The translations under genes and the position numbers were made by a program. This document shows, in pieces, positions 13,335 to 34,033 of a stretch of DNA of 35,278 bases; the stretch's first letter is position 1; each line of letters opens with the position of its first letter. The notes under the pieces are model-generated. The model was not told the origin of the DNA and searched no databases. It saw only the letters and a list, made by a program, of their open reading frames with translations. The DNA is taken from assembly GCA_016869045.1 (NCBI GenBank), contig VGFC01000024.1, positions 1 to 35,278 of the forward strand. The letters are read 5' to 3'. This DNA comes from Armatimonadota bacterium (GTDB lineage Bacteria > Armatimonadota > Zipacnadia > Zipacnadales > VGFC01).

Positions 13335-13384
13335 CCGCCCGAGACAGGGAGTTCAGGGACACGATCCTACTGCGCTTCGCAGAA

Positions 13385-13463
13385 ACACGGGAACAGTGGG
13401 GCGGGCATTCTTGCCCGCCACAGCCTCTGGCGGGCAAGAATGCCCGCCCCACTGTTCCCGTGT
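13385..13463. repeat. Family A BIME-like hairpin, copy 1
   Basis: Two perfect 36-bp arms (13385-13420 and 13428-13463) surround a 7-nt loop. Each arm contains its own smaller hairpin, GGCGGGCA and TGCCCGCC around TTCT. The same core returns at 15041-15098 and 23395-23470, always between genes on the plus strand. The rest of 13335-13543 shows no gene. Confidence 0.95.
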
Positions 13464-13543
13464 CTATCCGAGACTCAGTAATTCGGTGCGACTGAACTGG
13501 GTCATGTCGCTGAATTCCCCACAACGGTCCCGCTCCGGTACTC

Positions 13544-14698: not shown

Positions 14699-15018
14699 CG
14701 CGTCTAGTGCGCCGTCACTCGTCGGGGCGTGAGTGCCGTTTGGAGGGGCCGAATGCGAAGCATCCGGCCCCGCGCTGGGGTAGCCGCAACGCTACGGCGG
14801 GGCCGGATGCTTCGCATTCGGCCCCGCCAAACGGCACCCATCCCTTCACGGGCGACAGACCACTAGCCCCGCCCCCGCTCACGCGTGACGCGGAAGAGGA
14901 GCCCCAGGGATGGCCGGCCTGGAAGGTGTTGCCGGCGGCCCTGTGGCCGGTGGCCATCCTCGCCGCGTACGTTGCATCCGCCGTGCTGCCGCTGCTGCTG
15001 CGGCTCGGCGGTAACTGA
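14695..15018 (+). CDS. Small membrane protein with an inserted hairpin repeat
   Basis: The ATG overlaps the holA stop (ATGA). The 107-residue product has one C-terminal membrane helix (ALWPVAILAAYVASAVLPLLL) preceded by an acidic stretch. Codons from about 14733 to 14837 are a long inverted repeat, so roughly a third of the protein is repeat-derived. No start codon is seen between the repeat and the helix, so either the repeat is translated or the gene is disrupted. No family was recognised. Confidence 0.45.
   Translation: MTRLVRRHSSGRECRLEGPNAKHPAPRWGSRNATAGPDASHSAPPNGTHPFTGDRPLAPPPLTRDAEEEPQGWPAWKVLPAALWPVAILAAYVASAVLPLLLRLGGN
14733..14837. repeat. Family B compound hairpin inside a small ORF
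   Basis: Arms 14733-14773 and 14797-14837 are complementary over 41 bp with one mismatch. Each arm holds its own hairpin (GGGGCCGAATGC then GCATCCGGCCCC), and the 23-nt centre holds a third (GTAGC and GCTAC). This hairpin, centre, inverted-hairpin plan resembles a BIME. Confidence 0.92.
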
Positions 15019-15040
15019 GCTTCCCACAAGCACGGAAGCG

Positions 15041-15098
15041 GTGGGGCGGGCATTCTTGCCCGCCACAGGCCATTGGCGGGCAAGAATGCCCGCCCCAC
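15041..15098. repeat. Family A BIME-like hairpin, copy 2
   Basis: Arms 15041-15065 and 15074-15098 match perfectly over 25 bp around an 8-nt loop. The core is identical to the copies at 13385 and 23395; outer flanks have drifted. It fills most of the gap before the first GT-C gene. Confidence 0.93.
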
Positions 15099-15134
15099 TG
15101 TCTCCGCATCTCTCAGAGAATCGCTAGGACCGCC

Positions 15135-17183
15135 TTGCTGAGCCTCCTGGTGGCCGCTTGCATCCTCGTCTCCTGCCTGCTGCTGGGGGCGCAGGTTCTC
15201 AGCACCACCCGCCTTGCGCCCTCCACGAACCCCTCGCTTCCCACGGCCGAACGCGTGCTGTTCTCAGTGGCCGCGGGCATGCTGCTCATCGCGCTGATCG
15301 TCTTGCTCCTGGGGCTGCTTGGCTTGCTGCGACCGTGGGTGCTGTACACCGTGGTGGTCGCTGCAGCCCTCGCCGGGGCGAAGCAGGCGCCCTTCCTGTG
15401 GGGCGCCGCCGATCAGGCTGCGCGGATGGTTGGTCGCGGCCTGTTCGGCCCGACCCGGCGCCGCGCGCTGCATGTCTTCCTCGCGGGGTGGGCCATGCTG
15501 ACGTTGCTCAGCGCGCTGGCGCCGCCCAACGACCTGGACGATGACGGTCTCAGTCAGCACCTCGCGGCGCCCAAGACGTACCTGCGTCACGCCCACATCC
15601 ACCCGCTGTGGTATGACCACCACTCCCAGTTTCCGGCCGCCCTGCAGATGCTGTTCACCGTTGCGCTCGCGACCGGTCAGGTGGAGGCGGCGAAGGTGCT
15701 GCACTGGGCGTGCGGCGTGCTGGCGGCGCTCACGCTGATCGTGATCGGCCGCCGGTTCCTCTCGCCGGCCGCCGGGGAATGGGCGGCCTTTGCGTTGCTC
15801 GTCACGCCGGCTGTCGGCGCGCTCAGCACGGTCGCCTACGTGGACCTTGCGAGCGTCTTCCTTGCCGCCCTCCTCCTCCTCGCCTTCCTCCGTTGCCGTT
15901 CCCCCCTTCTGGAGGAAGGGGGGCAGGGGGGTAGGAGCCGTTCCCCCCTTCTGAAGGGAGGGGGGCAGGGGGGTAGGGACGTCGCCCTGGCCGGCCTGGC
16001 CGCCGGGGGCGGCATGGCGGTGAAGATGCAGGGCCTGCAGATCTTCGGCGTGGCCCTGCTCTTGCTCGCGATTGCGGCGCTTCTCGCGCGAGAGACCGTG
16101 GCGCGGGCCGCTCGCCGGCTCGGGGTCTTCGTCCTGGTGGCGGCGCTACCCGCGGCGCCCTGGTATCTGAAGAGCTTCCTGTGGACCGGCAACCCGGTGT
16201 ACCCGTTCGCGTACGGCGTGTTCGGGGGGAAGTACTGGGGTCCCGCCGAGGCCGCGCAGTATAGGGATCACCAGCTCGGTTTCGGCATCGGCGTTCCGCC
16301 GCCGGCAGCGGAACGGGAGCAGATGGGGTTCCTGAGGCGCACGTTCTACGGCCCAAGGGCGCCGCTCAATCTGCTGCTGGCGCCGTGGAACCTGACCATG
16401 CGCCCGAGAGAGTTCGACGTCCTGACCATGAATCCGGTCTACGCGGTCATGTCGGCAGGTGTCGGGCCGTTGCTGTTAGCGGTCTTGCCGCTGGTGCTCC
16501 TGACCGGGGCTCCGCGGCCGCTGCGCTGGTCCCTGGCCTTCCTGGGGCTCCTGTGGCTCGCCTGGCTGATGCTCATGCAGTACAACCGCTACCTCGTGCC
16601 TGTGCTGGTCTTCGCCGCCGTACCCGCGGGGTTCGTCCTCGGCGAGGGCGTGCCCGCGGGGATTGCCCGCCGCGCGCTGCGAGGCGTAGCCTGGTGCTGT
16701 GGCGCACTGGCGCTGCTGTACCTCGCTGTCGGCGGTCTGCTTGGCGGCTCGTGGGCTGCCGGAATCGGGCTTGTGCCGCGTGACGTGTACCTGCGGACGA
16801 CCTCCCAGTGCTGGCGCTTCTCGGACTGGGTGAACCGGGTGACGCCGACGCGGGCGAAGATCGCGCTCTATGCCGAGCCCAAGGGGTTCTACCTCGACCG
16901 CGACTACCTCTGGGCCGACCCGGGCCATAGCCGGCTGATCGAGTACGAGAAGATCACGTCGCCCGAGGACCTGCTCGACGCCTACAGCAGGCTGGGAGTC
17001 ACGCATGTCCTCTACCACCGGCTGCCCGGCACTCAGGAGCTGTTCGAGCTGGAGCCGTACGGCACGGAGTTGGGGGAACTGGAGCGCAGCGGGGAAGTCA
17101 GCGTTGTGGGCCATCCGCCCGACGACCCGAGTTACGTGTTGCTGGCGATCGAGACGCCCTGGGCGAGGGAGCTGACTCGGTGA
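15135..17183 (+). CDS. GT-C type polytopic membrane glycosyltransferase-like protein
   Basis: The protein of about 682 residues has more than ten membrane helices and a large C-terminal soluble part. An acidic motif, PPNDLDDDGLSQHLAAPKTYL, follows an early helix, as in polyprenol-phosphate-sugar dependent GT-C enzymes, where the acidic pair is catalytic. A later loop carries NPVYPFAYGVFGGKYW. The TTG start at 15135 is uncertain. A tandem 14-residue duplication of repeat origin interrupts the loop after about residue 254. The stop overlaps the next gene (GTGA). It likely transfers a sugar from a lipid carrier on the outer face of the inner membrane; donor and acceptor are unknown. Confidence 0.78.
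   Translation: MLSLLVAACILVSCLLLGAQVLSTTRLAPSTNPSLPTAERVLFSVAAGMLLIALIVLLLGLLGLLRPWVLYTVVVAAALAGAKQAPFLWGAADQAARMVGRGLFGPTRRRALHVFLAGWAMLTLLSALAPPNDLDDDGLSQHLAAPKTYLRHAHIHPLWYDHHSQFPAALQMLFTVALATGQVEAAKVLHWACGVLAALTLIVIGRRFLSPAAGEWAAFALLVTPAVGALSTVAYVDLASVFLAALLLLAFLRCRSPLLEEGGQGGRSRSPLLKGGGQGGRDVALAGLAAGGGMAVKMQGLQIFGVALLLLAIAALLARETVARAARRLGVFVLVAALPAAPWYLKSFLWTGNPVYPFAYGVFGGKYWGPAEAAQYRDHQLGFGIGVPPPAAEREQMGFLRRTFYGPRAPLNLLLAPWNLTMRPREFDVLTMNPVYAVMSAGVGPLLLAVLPLVLLTGAPRPLRWSLAFLGLLWLAWLMLMQYNRYLVPVLVFAAVPAGFVLGEGVPAGIARRALRGVAWCCGALALLYLAVGGLLGGSWAAGIGLVPRDVYLRTTSQCWRFSDWVNRVTPTRAKIALYAEPKGFYLDRDYLWADPGHSRLIEYEKITSPEDLLDAYSRLGVTHVLYHRLPGTQELFELEPYGTELGELERSGEVSVVGHPPDDPSYVLLAIETPWARELTR
15897..15980. 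repeat. Two direct 42-bp repeats inside the GT-C gene
   Basis: Units 15897-15938 and 15939-15980 are close copies starting CGTTCCCCCCTTCT and ending near GGGGGGCAGGGGGGTAGG. Each is exactly 14 codons, giving RSPLLEEGGQGGRS and RSPLLKGGGQGGRD. The host frame stays open. Confidence 0.93.
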
Positions 17184-23296: not shown

Positions 23297-23394
23297 CGCC
23301 GTTGCCGTGCCTGGGACCGCGCGCACCCTTGCGCGCACGCTGTTGCCTTCGTCGTCCTTGCCGTTGCCGTCATTCTATAGAGCCTTGCAGAAAC

Positions 23395-23470
23395 ACGGAA
23401 ACAGTGGGGCGGGCATTCTTGCCCGCCAGCGGGGCGTGGCGGGCAAGAATGCCCGCCCCACTGTTTCCGT
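23395..23470. repeat. Family A BIME-like hairpin, copy 3
   Basis: Perfect 34-bp arms (23395-23428 and 23437-23470) around an 8-nt loop, with the same core as the copies at 13385 and 15041. It separates lptB from lptF/G. The preceding stretch 23297-23394 is low-complexity, with degenerate CGTTGCC units and two copies of GCGCGCAC. Confidence 0.95.
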
Positions 23471-23508
23471 ACCTACGAAAGGCCCAGTAACTCCTGACTC
23501 CAGACGCC

Positions 23509-26182: not shown

Positions 26183-26632
26183 GTGAGCGACCGGCGGGCC
26201 GGCGGCGCGATCATCGCCATCGATCCGGGCCGCGAGAAGTGCGGTCTCGCAGCCGTCGCGGCGGATGGGCGCCTGGTCGAGAAGGCCGTCGTGCCGACCG
26301 GCGAGTTGCCTGACCGCCTCGCACGCATGTTGTCCGCCGCGCCCGAAGCCGACGTCATCATCGGAGGCGGCACTTCATCCAAGACCGTCCAGGCCGCCCT
26401 CCGCCAGGCCCTACCCGATCTGACCGCAGCGGTCGTCGATGAGGAGCACAGCACCGAGCGCGCGCTGGAACGGTGGCGCGACACCGTGCCGCCGAGGGGC
26501 TGGCGGCGCCTCCTGCCCCGGTCCCTGCGCTTTCCGCCCGGCCCGATCGACGACTTCGCCGCGTGGATTCTGGCCGAGGACTACCTGACGAAAAAGAGGG
26601 ACACCATACCAATTTCCCGACGCATGCCCTGA
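26183..26632 (+). CDS. YqgF/RuvX-like RNase H-fold nuclease
   Basis: The 149-residue protein has the RNase H-fold landmarks: IIAIDPGREKCGLAAV with the first catalytic Asp, the strand ADVIIGGGTSS, VVDEEHSTERALERW and PIDDFAAWIL with the last Asp. The YqgF family trims 16S rRNA precursors; related proteins are annotated as resolvases. The GTG starts 1 bp after the DUF3084 stop with GGAGGGGAG upstream. The last about 13 residues, KKRDTIPISRRMP, come from the left arm of a family D hairpin, so the native C-terminus has been replaced or extended. Confidence 0.8.
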   Translation: MSDRRAGGAIIAIDPGREKCGLAAVAADGRLVEKAVVPTGELPDRLARMLSAAPEADVIIGGGTSSKTVQAALRQALPDLTAAVVDEEHSTERALERWRDTVPPRGWRRLLPRSLRFPPGPIDDFAAWILAEDYLTKKRDTIPISRRMP

Positions 26633-26683
26633 AAACTCAGCGGAAGTGCTACCAGGAAATTGGTATGGTGTCCCTCTTTTTCG
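26589..26683. repeat. Family D hairpin, copy 1
   Basis: Perfect 29-bp arms (26589-26617 and 26655-26683), containing AGAGGGACACCATACC, with a 37-nt centre. It spans the 3' end of the YqgF gene and ends at the ribosome-binding site of the next gene. Relatives lie at 28374, 30511 and 31880. Confidence 0.95.
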
Positions 26684-28123: not shown

Positions 28124-31100
28124 TCACGGTTGTCGCACCTCGACCATCCTCCACCCCCGCCCGGGCATTGTGAGACGCAGGGCCCCCCGCCGTAGGTCCA
28201 GGGCTTCGCCCGAGACCGCGTCTCGTACTGTCACCCCGTTCGGCAGCGCCTCGAGGAGCTTGCCGATCTGCACCTCGACCTCGGCCTGGGCTTCCGTCTG
28301 GCTGCCGACGACGAGGAGGGCGTGGTCGGGCTTGAGGTAGAGGCTGCCGAGGACCTGGGGCGGCTGGACAGACACACGGGGACACCATGAAATGGTGTCC
28401 CCGGTGTACCAGTAGCCGACGAATTGCGTCTCGGCGTCCTCGTAAGGCGCGAGGGCGCGGTCCACCTCGGCCGGCTGGCCGCGCGTGGCGGAGTCGTGGA
28501 TGAGCGAGATCGCGAGGGCCTGGTCCATCGTGTGGCGGTTCGGGAGGAACTCGCCGCGCAGGCCGAACTGCTTGCCCATGTAACTCGCGACGTAGGTGTC
28601 GGGCGACAGGCGGAAGCCGGGCTTGTAGCGCGCGAGGGTCTCGCCATCGTAGTAGCCGTCGGTGAAGGCCTGGGTTGCGATGTTGAGGCAGCCGCCGGTG
28701 TGTGCGTCGAGGAAGAAGCTCTTGCGCCGCTGGGCGAAGATGTTGCGCAGGCGCTTCATGAACTCCCGCGTCGCGCGGATCGGGCTGTGTCCCCGGTACG
28801 TGCCGTCGCCCTGGGGCGTGCCGCAGCCGGGATGGGTTGGACTCTCGCAGTACCACGGCACGGTCGTCCCGTCCATGTAGACGCCGTCGATGCCCGCCTC
28901 ATCCGCGAGCCTCGCGATCCCATGCAGCAGCAGTTCTCCGTACGGTCCGTTGACACACCCCGTGTAGCAGTCCTGCGGCACGTCGTCGCGGTGATAGTGG
29001 TTCGACATCGGGAAGGCCAGCAGGTCATCGTGGAACGCCTCCCACTCGGGCTCGGCCGTGGAGACGCTCTGGTTGAAGTAGATGAGGAAGAGCATCCCCC
29101 GCGCGTGGCAGGCGTCGGCGATGCGCTTGAGCTTCGGGACCTGCGCGAGGTCGGGGTAGCCCTGGAAGCGCGACCAGTTCTCGTGGAAGATGACGATCCG
29201 CTTGCCCTCGTTGGCGAGGCGGTCGATGAATGTCCCACCGCCCGTGCCGAGAGCCTGCCCGAAGCACCCCTCGACGAGCACCGCGCCCTCGGCGTGCAGG
29301 TCCGGGCTCAACGCGTCGCAGTGATCGAGGAAGAGCGTGTCCGTGTCGGCGGTGAAGGGCACAGCCGGCACTCTCCCCGTCCGGACGCTCCGTGAGATGC
29401 GAACCTCATCCAGCGCGAAGCAGCCGAGGTCGAACTGGAGCGTGCTCTGTTCGACCGACCCCGAGACGGTGCCCGCGACGCTCAACTCCTGCGCCTGTCC
29501 GTTGACGCTCAGGCGGAGCTTGTCGCCCCAGGACAGCACGAGATAGCTCCACTGCCCGGCCGCCAGAGGGCTTGGCGCCGAGAGCACGACGGGGTACGTG
29601 CCATCCGCCTTGCGCGTCACGAGGCGGAAGTTGCGCACGTCGGCGTTGTAGTACAGAATGAGCCATTCGTCCGTGCTCGTGCGCACGTTGAGGAACTGCC
29701 GGTTGTACTGCGAGCGGTCCACGCTCTCGTCGTACGCCTCGCCCGTGTCAAACAGCGGCTTCACCCAGCACTCGAAGGTCCCGCGGCTCAGGTCCAGCCG
29801 GTTCTTCGCCGCGACGCGCAGGCTGCCGCCACCCGGCGCGGACTCCATGCCGTAGAAGGCCCCGTGGTAGATGCGCGACTTCCATAGCGAGACGGGCTTG
29901 GCGGGCGTGATGTGTAGCGCGAACTTCGCGGCATACGGCTCCGAGAGTACGGTTGGCGTGTCGATGAACGTCGAGCGCCACACGGTCTCCGTGGCCCCGG
30001 GGATCACCTCGACCTGCCGCGCGCGGTCCTCGGCCTGGACCCACTCCAGACTTTCCGTGAGCCACGCGAGCCCGCGCTCCTCGTCGCCCAGCCACAGGTT
30101 CTCGCCAACCGGCCGCCGCAAGCCGAGGGGCGACAGGGCGTGCCCCGCCTGTGCATGGCCCTCGTAGGCGTAGCGGGAGACCGCCTTGCGCATGGGTATC
30201 TCAAGGGCGACCCGCTCCACGCTTACTGATTCGTTCGGTGTGAGTGTCACCTCGTTCCACGTGAAGCCGTCGTACTCGACCTGCGAGGTCACGGTCAGCG
30301 TCAGCTTCGGGCTGCGCCAGATGCTCTCCAGCAGCGCGTGATCGTCGGCCTGCTCGCGGAGGCGAAGGTCCCGCGACTGCCACTCGACCTTCGCGCCGTC
30401 CGCGATCACCACGAGCCGCATCGGCTCGGCGAGTAGCTCGGCGCCGGCGCTGGTGATGGAGGCCGGTAGCGCGAGGTCGCGGTACGTCAGGCGCTTGCCG
30501 AGCATGTCGAGAAAAAGAGGGACACCGTACCAATTCCGGACGTCGGAAATTGGTATGGTGTCCCTCTTTTTCAGCCGGATCGGCGTCCACGGCGGCAGCA
30601 CGCCGAGGGGCAGCCCGGCCTGCGTGCCCTGCCACGAGGGCTTCTCGGGTACCGTGAACTCGATCGAGCGCTGGTCGAGCGTCTGGCCTGCGGCGTCAGT
30701 CACGACGACCTGCGCGGAGAGGTGCTCGCCGGGCTTCGCGTTCACGGGCAGCGTCAGCGTGCAGCCACGGGTCTTCCGCAGGTCAGCGTGAGAGGTCGTC
30801 GCGTCGTCGGCCGGCGGCTGCAGCGTGAGCGTAGCCTCGGCGGCCCCGCCGATCTCGGTGAGGTTCACATCCGCGCGCACCTCGGCCGGCAGCGCGAAGT
30901 AGCGCAGCCCAAGCTGCAGCCTCGGCTGCACGTGATACGGCGCCTCACCGACGAGCAGCGGGACCTCGTCGCCTTCGGCATGCACCGCGTACTTCGCACT
31001 CAGGGCGTACGCGAGGCTTACAGGCTCCTGCGCGCCGGGCGCGAGGTCCACCCGCCGCTGAACCGACTGCCCATCCCCCGGCGTCGCATCAATCACGACC

Positions 31101-31897
31101 GCTGCTGAAGACTCGCTTGGGTTGGCGAGGGTGAGCCGCAGCTCGTGGTCGCCCGGGCCGGCGGTCGGGGGCTCCGTCTGACGCACGAAGGGTCGCCGGC
31201 TCACGAGCCGCATGGCCCCCAACGGCAGGGGGCGGTAGCCCCCGAAGCCCGGGCACACCCAACCGCTGAGGTCGGGCGGGCGGTTGCGGAAGAGGTTGAG
31301 GCCCCAGATCGCATCCTCCGGCGCGCCTTGCAGCCCGAAGGCCGCGAAGGGGATGGCCATCTCCGCCGTCCAGGCCTCGTCATTGCGCGAGGTAGCCGCC
31401 TGCCAGTCGGCGTCCCAGTCGCGCACATCGTTGCGGGCTTCGGTCCGGCTGCCCGCGGCGTTGACCGTGAACTCGTAGTAGGCCTGGATGTCCTGGTACC
31501 ACGTGTCGAGCGCGCCCTCGTAGCCGCCGAAGGCGATGCGCGCAGTCTTCGCCGCGCGTGGGTCCTCCGGCGCCACGAACACCTGCACGCAGTCATCCTC
31601 GAAGGCGCGGTCGTCGTGCGCACGCTTGAACGCGCGCGGGAGGTTGCGGTCAGGCTCCAGGCAACGGAACCCGACGTACAGCGCGTCCGCGTCGAAGCCC
31701 AGGTAAGCAGCCGTGTTCGGCTGCGCCAGCGCCTGCCCACCGAGGGCCGCGAAGCCGCTGACCGCCGCCGCGTCGCGCCACTCGTCGGCAGCGAGGCGAC
31801 CGTCGATCACCGGCGCGAGAGAGAGGCGGGGCACGGTGATGAAGGCGTTGTCGCCTACGGCCCGGCACGCGAGCCCGATGAAAAAGAGGGACACCAT
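28124..31897 (-). CDS. Large exported CBM9-like/LamG/glycosidase-like protein
   Basis: From the ATG at 31897 the protein has 1257 residues. Domains in order: a short signal-like segment MVSLFFIGLACRAVG encoded partly by a family D repeat; a CBM9/DOMON-like domain (about 20-210; VIDGRLAADEWRDAA, YLGFDADALYVGFRC); beta-sandwich regions; a LamG-like domain near the middle (GTFECWVKPLFDTGEA, GQWSYLVLSWGDKLRLSVNG); a TIM-barrel glycosidase-like domain (IVIFHENWSRFQGYPD, GMLFLIYFNQ, GIDGVYMDGTT) and a C-terminal beta domain. It resembles multi-domain glycoside hydrolases of environmental bacteria (GH123 or DUF6067-like). Two more family D hairpins lie in frame inside. It follows the ADP-ribosylglycohydrolase gene in the same direction. 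Confidence 0.72.
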   Translation of the reverse strand: MVSLFFIGLACRAVGDNAFITVPRLSLAPVIDGRLAADEWRDAAAVSGFAALGGQALAQPNTAAYLGFDADALYVGFRCLEPDRNLPRAFKRAHDDRAFEDDCVQVFVAPEDPRAAKTARIAFGGYEGALDTWYQDIQAYYEFTVNAAGSRTEARNDVRDWDADWQAATSRNDEAWTAEMAIPFAAFGLQGAPEDAIWGLNLFRNRPPDLSGWVCPGFGGYRPLPLGAMRLVSRRPFVRQTEPPTAGPGDHELRLTLANPSESSAAVVIDATPGDGQSVQRRVDLAPGAQEPVSLAYALSAKYAVHAEGDEVPLLVGEAPYHVQPRLQLGLRYFALPAEVRADVNLTEIGGAAEATLTLQPPADDATTSHADLRKTRGCTLTLPVNAKPGEHLSAQVVVTDAAGQTLDQRSIEFTVPEKPSWQGTQAGLPLGVLPPWTPIRLKKRDTIPISDVRNWYGVPLFLDMLGKRLTYRDLALPASITSAGAELLAEPMRLVVIADGAKVEWQSRDLRLREQADDHALLESIWRSPKLTLTVTSQVEYDGFTWNEVTLTPNESVSVERVALEIPMRKAVSRYAYEGHAQAGHALSPLGLRRPVGENLWLGDEERGLAWLTESLEWVQAEDRARQVEVIPGATETVWRSTFIDTPTVLSEPYAAKFALHITPAKPVSLWKSRIYHGAFYGMESAPGGGSLRVAAKNRLDLSRGTFECWVKPLFDTGEAYDESVDRSQYNRQFLNVRTSTDEWLILYYNADVRNFRLVTRKADGTYPVVLSAPSPLAAGQWSYLVLSWGDKLRLSVNGQAQELSVAGTVSGSVEQSTLQFDLGCFALDEVRISRSVRTGRVPAVPFTADTDTLFLDHCDALSPDLHAEGAVLVEGCFGQALGTGGGTFIDRLANEGKRIVIFHENWSRFQGYPDLAQVPKLKRIADACHARGMLFLIYFNQSVSTAEPEWEAFHDDLLAFPMSNHYHRDDVPQDCYTGCVNGPYGELLLHGIARLADEAGIDGVYMDGTTVPWYCESPTHPGCGTPQGDGTYRGHSPIRATREFMKRLRNIFAQRRKSFFLDAHTGGCLNIATQAFTDGYYDGETLARYKPGFRLSPDTYVASYMGKQFGLRGEFLPNRHTMDQALAISLIHDSATRGQPAEVDRALAPYEDAETQFVGYWYTGDTISWCPRVSVQPPQVLGSLYLKPDHALLVVGSQTEAQAEVEVQIGKLLEALPNGVTVRDAVSGEALDLRRGALRLTMPGRGWRMVEVRQP
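28374..28407. repeat. Family D-related short hairpin inside the large gene
   Basis: ACACGGGGACACCAT and ATGGTGTCCCCGGTGT pair with one bulge around GAA. The GGACACCAT core is shared with family D. It is translated as part of GDTISWCPRVS. Confidence 0.75.
30511..30572. repeat. Family D hairpin, copy 2, in frame inside the large gene
   Basis: Arms 30511-30538 and 30544-30572 pair with two small differences around a 5-nt centre. Read in the host frame the element gives KKRDTIPISDVRNWYGVPLF with no stop. Confidence 0.93.
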
Positions 31898-31971
31898 ACC
31901 AATTTCCAGACGCGTGGCCTGTAGATTCAACGAAAACTGACCTCCGAAATTAGTATGGTGTCCCCATTTTT
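31880..31971. repeat. Family D hairpin, copy 3, at two gene ends
   Basis: Arm 31880-31907 is intact; arm 31945-31971 has diverged (TTAGTATGG, CCCCATTTTTA). The element fills the 72-bp gap between the ADP-ribosylglycohydrolase gene and the large gene. It supplies the stop of the first (TAA, 31970-31972) and the ATG of the second (31895-31897). Confidence 0.9.
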
Positions 31972-33886
31972 AGGGGAGGAGTTCGATCTCGCTGATCTGC
32001 GCGGCGTTGGGCCAGCGGTCGCTCGCGGACTTGCGGATCGTCAGGCGGAAGTGGCGCGCCTGGACGGCATCGAAGACCTTCTCGTAGCGGCGCGCGTCGG
32101 CGTAGCCGCTCTCCTCGAAGACGGTCTGCCAGGTCTGCTCATCCTGGCTGACCTCGCCGAGGAAGTCCACCGGGTGGCCCTGCGGATCGGCGAAGTGGAT
32201 GATGACCCGGCCGATGCTCTGGGCCTCCGGCAGATGGACTGTGATCCAGTGCGGGTGCGGGGTGAGGGCGGCGTGCCAGCGTTTCCCCTCGAAGTCCCAC
32301 TCGGTGGCGAGCACGCCGTCGATGGCCTTCTGCGTGCCGCCGACATCGCGCTCGTACTCGGAGTCTGAGGTCGCCGTCGCGCCCTTGCTCGCGAGGGCGA
32401 GGTCGCCCTTGCTCACCGTCACGTGGGTAGCGAGCGCGAACGGGACCACGCCCAGGCTCGGACGACCGCGCGGGGCGATCTCGACGCAGCCCCTCAGCAC
32501 CGGCTGGTCGATCTCCTCCGCACGTAACTCGACGCGCACCGTCACCGGCTCGTGGCCGAGGGGCGGAAGGTCCACGGTCTGCGTCGCGGGTTCGGCGGTG
32601 AGCCCCTCGGGCAGGCGGCAGGTGAGCGTGACGGGCAGCGGCTGCGGCGTCTGGTTCTGCAGCTCGACCGCGATCGAGTGAGGCGCGTCCACGCTGAGCC
32701 ACGGCTCGCCCAGCATGTCGAGCGTCGCGCGGATCGTAACCAGGTCGAAGGGCACGCGCCACGGGGACCGCGTCCAGAGCGCCTTCGCCGCGGCCTCATC
32801 GGTCAATGAGACACCGGCCAGGTCGGTCGGCGCGTCGGCGATGCGCACGGAGGCGTTCTGCTCCAGCAGCACGATCTTCGCCATGCGCACCGTGCGGTCG
32901 CTCAGTTCGGTGAGCGTCTTGGGCGGCTGGAAGTTGCCGATCGCGACGTTGCGGATCTCCTCACCGATCGGCGCGCGCCAGCGTTCGGGGATGCCCCGCG
33001 TTCCGTTCAGGATGCCGAGCAGCGAGCCGAGCGTCGCGCCCGTGCAGTCGGTGTCATCGCCGCAGTTCACGGCCGCGCAGATCGACTTTCCGAAGTCCCC
33101 CTCGCCGTAAAGCCAGCCGAGCATCGTGAATGCCACGTTCTGCGGCGCCATGAACCAGCCGGTGGACTCCGAAGCCTTCACCACGGCCTCGCGCGCGGCC
33201 ATCAGGTCGAGGGCCTGCCTGCGGGCATCCATCGCTGCCCGGACGCTCTTCGCCACAGCGCAGTCCGACGGGATGTAGCTGAGGCCGATCTGCAGGAGCC
33301 GGTCGCGGTCCGACTCGACGAACGCGGCGCTCTCCATCGCGGCGGTGAACAGCTCCGCGTAGGTTCCCTCGGCCGCGCCGTGATCGACGCACGCGTCCTC
33401 ATAGGCGTATCGCGCGGCGAGCGCCGGGCAGCCCGGAGCCACGCAGGCCCAGATCTCGGAGCGAATCCACGCACCGTTGCTGTCGCGCCAGCGGTCGTTG
33501 CGGAACTGCCCGGAGATCGGCGGCGCGAACCCGTCGCGCATGTTCGTCTTGCCGACCCCGTACTCGTTCCAGTCCACCGGCACGAAGCTGAGCCAGTACT
33601 CGCCGAGCACGCGCGCGTCGATGCGCGTCCCGCGCTCCTCCAGGGCCTTCAGCCACAGGAGCTGCAGGTCGAGGTCGTCGTTCGCGGTCTGACCCGAGGG
33701 CATCGGATCGTAGAACGTGAACTGGTGCGTCTCGCGGCGCCCCTCGACCGGCGCGCCGAGCGTGCCCCCGATGCTCTTGCCGAGCCAACAGGCGTAGACC
33801 TTGTCGCGGAACTCGGCCTCGTTGAGGGTCACCGCGTGGGCGGGCTGGTAGAGCGTCGTCAACAGGAGAGCTGCTGCTCCAGGCAT
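31970..33886 (-). CDS. Exported ADP-ribosylglycohydrolase family protein with C-terminal discoidin domain
   Basis: From the ATG at 33886 the protein has 638 residues; the frame is open further upstream but overlaps a real plus-strand gene. A short signal (GAAALLLTTLYQPAHA) is followed by the ADP-ribosylglycohydrolase fold (about 20-340): FRDKVYACWLGKSIGGTLGAPVEG, the divergent first metal motif TANDDLDLQ (usual TDDT), and the well-kept NCGDDTDCTGATLGSLLG. A beta-sandwich region follows, then an F5/8 type C-like domain (about 490-638; ATSDSEYERDVGGTQKAIDGVLATEWDF, HWITVHLPEAQSIGRVIIHF, RHFRLTIRKS). In this family the metal centre cleaves ADP-ribose or related bonds; an exported form with a sugar-binding-like domain suggests another substrate. 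Confidence 0.85.
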   Translation of the reverse strand: MPGAAALLLTTLYQPAHAVTLNEAEFRDKVYACWLGKSIGGTLGAPVEGRRETHQFTFYDPMPSGQTANDDLDLQLLWLKALEERGTRIDARVLGEYWLSFVPVDWNEYGVGKTNMRDGFAPPISGQFRNDRWRDSNGAWIRSEIWACVAPGCPALAARYAYEDACVDHGAAEGTYAELFTAAMESAAFVESDRDRLLQIGLSYIPSDCAVAKSVRAAMDARRQALDLMAAREAVVKASESTGWFMAPQNVAFTMLGWLYGEGDFGKSICAAVNCGDDTDCTGATLGSLLGILNGTRGIPERWRAPIGEEIRNVAIGNFQPPKTLTELSDRTVRMAKIVLLEQNASVRIADAPTDLAGVSLTDEAAAKALWTRSPWRVPFDLVTIRATLDMLGEPWLSVDAPHSIAVELQNQTPQPLPVTLTCRLPEGLTAEPATQTVDLPPLGHEPVTVRVELRAEEIDQPVLRGCVEIAPRGRPSLGVVPFALATHVTVSKGDLALASKGATATSDSEYERDVGGTQKAIDGVLATEWDFEGKRWHAALTPHPHWITVHLPEAQSIGRVIIHFADPQGHPVDFLGEVSQDEQTWQTVFEESGYADARRYEKVFDAVQARHFRLTIRKSASDRWPNAAQISEIELLP

Positions 33887-34033
33887 GGCGTCAATGTCCT
33901 TCGGCGCGACCGAGATGCTGGTGCCTTCCGCGCTCCTCTCAGATCGTCCTCGCAGCAAAGAAGGAGTCCGATGCGGCCGTGGCGAAGATGGTCGAACAGA
34001 CGTGCGAATACGACGAGCAGGGAGGCGTTCACA

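Follow-up and report, generated by a model that had tools for sequence, protein, structure and literature searches.

Background

The closest precedents for the element described here are the Rickettsia palindromic elements, the REP and TIR repeats associated with RAYT genes, and a MITE that contributes to a signal peptide in Yersinia. In reviews of the work of Ogata et al., Rickettsia palindromic elements (RPEs) are described as in-frame palindromes within unrelated conserved genes (PMC10969869, PMC2229807). The present family resembles them in that its palindromes are dispersed, lie in frame within unrelated conserved protein genes (18 copies), and occur as copies without a transposase of their own. 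It differs in its apparently unrelated sequence, its host phylum (Armatimonadota), and its size (60-103 nt, against about 105-150 for RPEs). It is also linked by sequence to RAYT-type genes, and it displaces native codons at the sites that were compared.

The second precedent is the set of TIR repeats of RAYT-type genes (TIRYT/TIRtron; Di Nocera et al. 2013, PMC3733652). The arm GGGGACAC fits their GGGGWSAS pattern, close relatives of the arms flank a Y1 gene (in G022), and sister hairpins adjoin a Y1 gene in the present genome. REP ends were reported in the same study to supply stop codons, and the present hairpin ends often do so as well. Unlike TIRYT/TIRtron repeats, the present family consists of a full long hairpin with a GACGTC loop, many copies lie within coding sequence, and no Y1 gene with exactly the present arms was found in this genome. 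The family also recalls REPINs (Bertels and Rainey 2011, PMC3116915), being an inverted doublet that forms one hairpin, is dispersed in one lineage, and has a likely RAYT-type partner. However, REPINs are almost wholly extragenic and consist of two REPs, each with an imperfect palindrome, whereas the present arms are individually non-palindromic. Classical REPs are palindromes of 20-40 nt with a terminal GTAG/CGTC tag, and no such tag occurs in the 54 aligned copies. As in MITEs, terminal inverted repeats are present, but none of nine empty-site comparisons revealed a target-site duplication.

Finally, a MITE was proposed to form part of the predicted signal peptide of Yersinia YPO1552 (Delihas; PMC2229807). 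That case involves a putative new exported protein, whereas the gene considered here encodes a conserved enzyme whose native leader has been displaced, and the copy in question also closes the upstream gene. What is new is the host phylum, the loss of native codons to the element, and a single copy that redefines the stop codon of one conserved gene together with the start and leader of the next.

A palindromic element between two genes

The stretch of Armatimonadota DNA that was analyzed (hereafter, the window) is 35,278 nucleotides long. The features on which the argument depends are as follows; palindromes are given without a strand.

26590..26682, no strand: third family copy, between ORF 26183-26632 and a ceramidase-like gene
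28124..31930, minus strand: GH123_N/Laminin_G_3 enzyme, 1257 aa from the ATG or 1268 aa from the TTG
28378..28402, no strand: short palindrome GGGGACACCAT-NNN-ATGGTGTCCCC, in frame in the enzyme gene; this type also occurs at the Y1 gene of C140
30511..30572, no strand: second family copy, read in frame within the enzyme gene (KKRDTIPISDVRNWYGVPLF); 14 native nt are displaced
31841..31879, minus strand: IGLACRAVGDNAF, putative remnant of the native leader, from alignment with L071, L072 and L074
31880..31972, no strand: palindromic element of 93 nt, assigned by its 54-copy family and RNA fold; proximal arm ~31880-31907, distal arm ~31946-31972
31895..31897, minus strand: ATG in the proximal arm (MVSLFF), taken as the start in the earlier note; in frame, 0% unpaired, Shine-Dalgarno (SD) energy -3.7 kcal/mol
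31928..31930, minus strand: TTG in the loop region, the favoured in-frame start candidate
31940..31945, minus strand: Shine-Dalgarno-like GGAGGU within the apical portion of the hairpin; duplex energy -10.2 kcal/mol
31970..31972, minus strand: TAA stop of the ADP-ribosylglycohydrolase, at the outer edge of the hairpin; four relatives end 1-3 residues later
31970..33889, minus strand: ADP-ribosylglycohydrolase (Pfam ADP_ribosyl_GH) with an F5/8 type C domain

The hairpin at 31880-31972 constitutes the whole gap between the ADP-ribosylglycohydrolase gene and the GH123-like enzyme gene. The earlier note had placed a mobile-type repeat here, between two minus-strand genes, and both the position and the attribution hold: the arms match those of the window copies at 26590-26682 and 30511-30572, and 54 paired-arm copies occur genome-wide. 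The predicted RNA fold has an energy of -48.9 kcal/mol with flanks (z -3.2). Its stem contains four mismatches, and its outer ends belong to different sub-types (GAAAAAGAGGG versus AAAAATGGGG). An Rfam scan of the window returned no family.

The glycohydrolase gene ends, on the minus strand, with CTC CTC CCC TAA, the TAA occupying 31972-31970. Four relatives continue past EIELLP with R, K, N or PGK, residues that the window protein lacks, its stop coming directly after the P. Because the glycohydrolase and the enzyme share one reading frame across the 93 nt, the TAA alone parts them. The distal arm had been credited with this codon, and the stop does lie at the outer edge of the hairpin, but one native base probably completes it. 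The T is found at no other family copy's terminus, which leaves two possibilities: it is a native base next to an element of 92 nt, or an end base of the element that has mutated.

A family expanded in one lineage

Genome-wide, the arm core gave 52 forward and 53 reverse matches, versus 0 for a reversed control. The 54 catalogued paired-arm hairpins are mostly 60-62, 67-68 or 92-93 nt long. Their arms are inverted, near-perfect and about 26 nt or more in length, and most copies have perfect outer stems; the C249 and C257 copies contain several mismatches each. The congener (G001) has one family hairpin, and other relatives carry few related arms or none, which indicates that the family expanded in the present lineage. 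A literature search for a related arm sequence found none.

The congener's only family-type hairpin (L181, G001 C807) lies at the same site as the C117:14735 copy (L138), and the DNA is nearly identical, with the remainder of the gene showing ~80% protein identity between the species. Local transfer, gene conversion or mis-binning are possible explanations of this near-identity.

The counts of copies in coding sequence that follow rely on a codon-bias heuristic trained on window genes, not on a gene caller. By this measure, 18 copies lie inside long ORFs with the frame kept, as judged by codon bias on both flanks, and all three frames are used (translations include KKRDTIPIS..., KRGTPYQF... 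and EKEGHHTN...). All frames of the hairpin arms are stop-free, and no copy was seen by the heuristic to break a gene's frame clearly. An assembly artefact is an unlikely source of the family copies, because the 18 copies keep frame in unrelated genes. At about nine gene 3' ends, the same heuristic places a stop codon astride the hairpin terminus (for example, T/GA), and about 20 further genes stop inside a hairpin.

The junction copy is not unique in its relation to a leader, since two or three other copies also lie in leaders. The C231:5242 hairpin is embedded in the leader MMFSRG[EKKEGHHTNFGRRKLVWCPSFF]LALVPSVAFAA, and the C167:6936 hairpin lies in a leader whose congener counterpart is a plain native one. 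The C21:11164 case is less certain, its start being unclear. The signal peptides of C231:5242 (G000) and its congener ortholog (G001 C22:9411-9463; L259/L233) carry arms of different types at the same position, those of the congener being sister-type.

Other repeats were observed in the window. The 26590-26682 copy appears to supply the last residues (KKRDTIPISRRMP) and the TGA stop of ORF 26183-26632. A second hairpin family (GGGGCGGGCATTCTTGCCCGCC) has three intergenic copies, at 13345-13498, 15011-15113 and 23380-23491, and two C-rich units of 41 nt (CCCCCCTTCTGGAGGAAGGGGGG...) stand in tandem at 15895-15977 within a predicted membrane-protein ORF.

Displacement of native bases

Ortholog alignments at the nine sites with usable relatives show that the hairpin displaces ~7-45 native bases, with no clean insertion. 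The 30511 copy displaces 14 nt relative to each of four relatives, the C70:14577 copy 38 nt relative to three, and the C299 and C183 copies 17 and 16 nt, respectively, each relative to two. At C117:14300, C117:16186, C240, C239 and C234, the displacement is ~7-45 nt and varies by relative. The nine sites exclude C106, C136 and C255, for which automatic anchors failed or spanned long unrelated segments (reading by hand suggests ~29 nt displaced at C106, which is not counted). The C117:14735 copy, being near-identical in the congener, provides no empty site. Clean insertion with target duplication is ruled out at the nine comparable sites, where native bases are displaced, not duplicated.

In two genes of the congener, native residues are likewise replaced by hairpins of a sister arm type. 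One site is shared by the two species: a gene resembling Y-family polymerases contains a hairpin there, in frame, in each of them (L268, G000 C345; L260, G001 C40). The gene lacks the usual ASDxxKPDG segment, and the two arms have changed together (GGCCCC...GGGGCC versus GGCACC...GGTGCC). From the shared site and the matching arm changes, it follows that some copies are passed on by descent and remain palindromic. Selection on loop length after insertion and a mechanism that replaces sequence both fit the missing native bases.

Relation to Y1/RAYT-type transposases

Several Y1 genes are associated with hairpins of related type. In the present genome, the Y1_Tnp gene at C183:1091-1945 is preceded, at a distance of 30 nt, by a sister GGGACAGGC hairpin, and a second one lies towards the 3' end within its open frame. 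These sister hairpins share the GACGTC loop of the present family and occur at 66 places here and 11 in G001. In G022, arms closely related to those of the present family lie on both sides of a Y1 gene (L142:531-1287). Flanking of a Y1 gene by arms, as expected of a TIR/REP family, is therefore found in G022 and, for the sister hairpins, at C183. Palindromes of the form GGGGACACCAT-NNN-ATGGTGTCCCC come after the RAYT-like Y1 gene at C140 (L035:1459-2121), and one of these adjoining palindromes is also read in frame within it (QGTPSNGVPLCG). A run of GGGGACAGCAT palindromes lies upstream of this gene.

The C183, G022 and C140 proteins match Y1_Tnp above the cut-off; against REP_Tyr_transpos, they score 68-71 bits (E 1e-18 to 1e-20), where the curated cut-off is 80 bits. 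A search for the family arms near this genome's ten Y1_Tnp loci found no exact arms, and gave only the short palindromes at C140. We infer that these Y1 enzymes mobilise the hairpins.

Origin of the junction and the start of the enzyme

Our preferred reading, to which we assign a probability of roughly 0.55, is that a copy of the palindromic family replaced the native ends of both genes, and that the enzyme is made mainly from TTG 31930 with a weak composite signal peptide. The element is present here, and repeat-free relatives have the parts that it displaces. Presumably, this was a single event, and the two genes were neighbours before the element arrived. No relative provides an empty site for the junction, the two genes lying apart in relatives and none having the same pair adjacent.

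The same arrangement would also result if recombination between two dispersed copies had joined distant genes through a hybrid hairpin, with no single insertion. The differing sub-types of the outer ends and the four stem mismatches, in a family whose outer stems are mostly perfect, point in this direction, as does the fact that the neighbours of both junction genes differ in relatives. However, these MAGs are distant and their gene order is fluid, so that little weight attaches to the loss of synteny, and the mismatched C249 and C257 copies illustrate that decay can mimic a hybrid. We consider recombination unlikely, although it deserves serious attention.

Our preferred reading, replacement by a family copy, also concerns where the enzyme begins. 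In three repeat-free orthologs, the start and the leader are native (MLTSLLTSCCVALAQA, MPPIVAVGILLLLAQGVLAA and MSQRTLRRTILLAVCALPMTALA), whereas in the window enzyme only IGLACRAVGDNAF is left between the hairpin and the conserved domain. The earlier note had said that relatives with the same start and leader but no repeat would speak against it; those compared have a different native start and leader. Its reading of ATG GTG TCC CTC TTT TTC (31897-31880, minus strand), continuing into IGLACRAVG, is correct. Its proposal that the repeat supplies the start is borne out insofar as every start that keeps a hydrophobic leader falls within the 31880-31972 element, but ATG 31897 is unlikely to be the main start. 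Likewise, MVSLFF is encoded by the element, but the signal-like leader is composite, its other half being a native leftover.

We favour TTG 31930 as the stronger start candidate on the basis of predicted pairing. This codon lies ~10 nt after GGAGG (SD energy -10.2 kcal/mol); against it, the SD and the TTG are each only ~30% unpaired in the predicted hairpin. Among the other 93-nt copies, the best pairing of SD and start reaches -6.4, none being as strong as that of TTG 31930. A start at the proximal-arm ATG, giving the signal peptide MVSLFFIGLACRAVG, would have the commoner start codon, a hydrophobic run from residue 1, and a possible A-V-G/D cleavage site. Against this stand an SD energy of -3.7 kcal/mol with poor geometry, the position of the ATG within the stem, where the predicted ensemble leaves it 0% unpaired, and the in-frame TTG with its GGAGGU 33 nt upstream; we therefore regard initiation mainly at ATG 31897 as rather improbable. 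From either start, the hydrophobic core of the leader is short (11-13 residues), the same cleavage site is possible, and the net n-region charge is 0, with no net positive charge before the hydrophobic run. Export of the enzyme through the composite leader is plausible from the predicted sequence.

It is also doubtful that the hairpin is extragenic in effect, with translation from GTG 31834 (MPRLSLAPVIDGRL), the leader lost, the enzyme cytosolic or decaying, and MVSLFF a chance frame. In favour of this reading, an open frame is of little evidential value when all arm frames are stop-free, REPs found at predicted N-termini were judged often or mostly non-coding in other genomes (PMC3733652), and the enzyme gene carries two further palindromes. 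Against it, the 1257 codons of the enzyme run on without a stop across the two internal palindromes and show good coding bias, leader-like residues remain before the domain, and three orthologs have leaders.

Under our preferred reading, then, a palindromic family related to hairpins that adjoin Y1/RAYT-type genes has spread in this lineage, its copies tending to substitute for short native stretches. At the junction, the element takes the place of the glycohydrolase's last 1-3 codons and native stop; on the enzyme side, it stands where the start codon, the n-region and roughly half of the signal-peptide hydrophobic core would be expected. The stop now lies at the hairpin base, the loop carries GGAGGU together with the in-frame TTG, and the in-frame ATG falls in the far stem. 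Ribosomes terminating on the glycohydrolase at the base of the hairpin may loosen it and so aid initiation at TTG 31930, from which the enzyme would mainly be translated. The element-coded MVSLFF and the leftover IGLACRAVG would then form a weak composite signal peptide.

Conclusions

A wider generalization is conceivable, although we put it forward very tentatively and think it unlikely to hold in full: that a RAYT-linked superfamily of palindromes in Armatimonadota overwrites native stretches, is translated in all frames, and remodels gene ends by providing stops, starts with an SD in the loop, and signal-peptide cores, with downstream translation coupled through the hairpin and with species-shared copies keeping their arms matched. 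The present findings would bring protein-coding palindromes, best known from Rickettsia, into a distant phylum and connect them with RAYT-type transposases, whose mode of spreading repeats is poorly understood. The consistent deficit of native codons at occupied sites is a clue that dispersal is not simple transposition. In the gene pair at the junction, a selfish repeat has redefined the end of one protein, the start of the next, and possibly its route of export, and this case is concrete enough to be tested.
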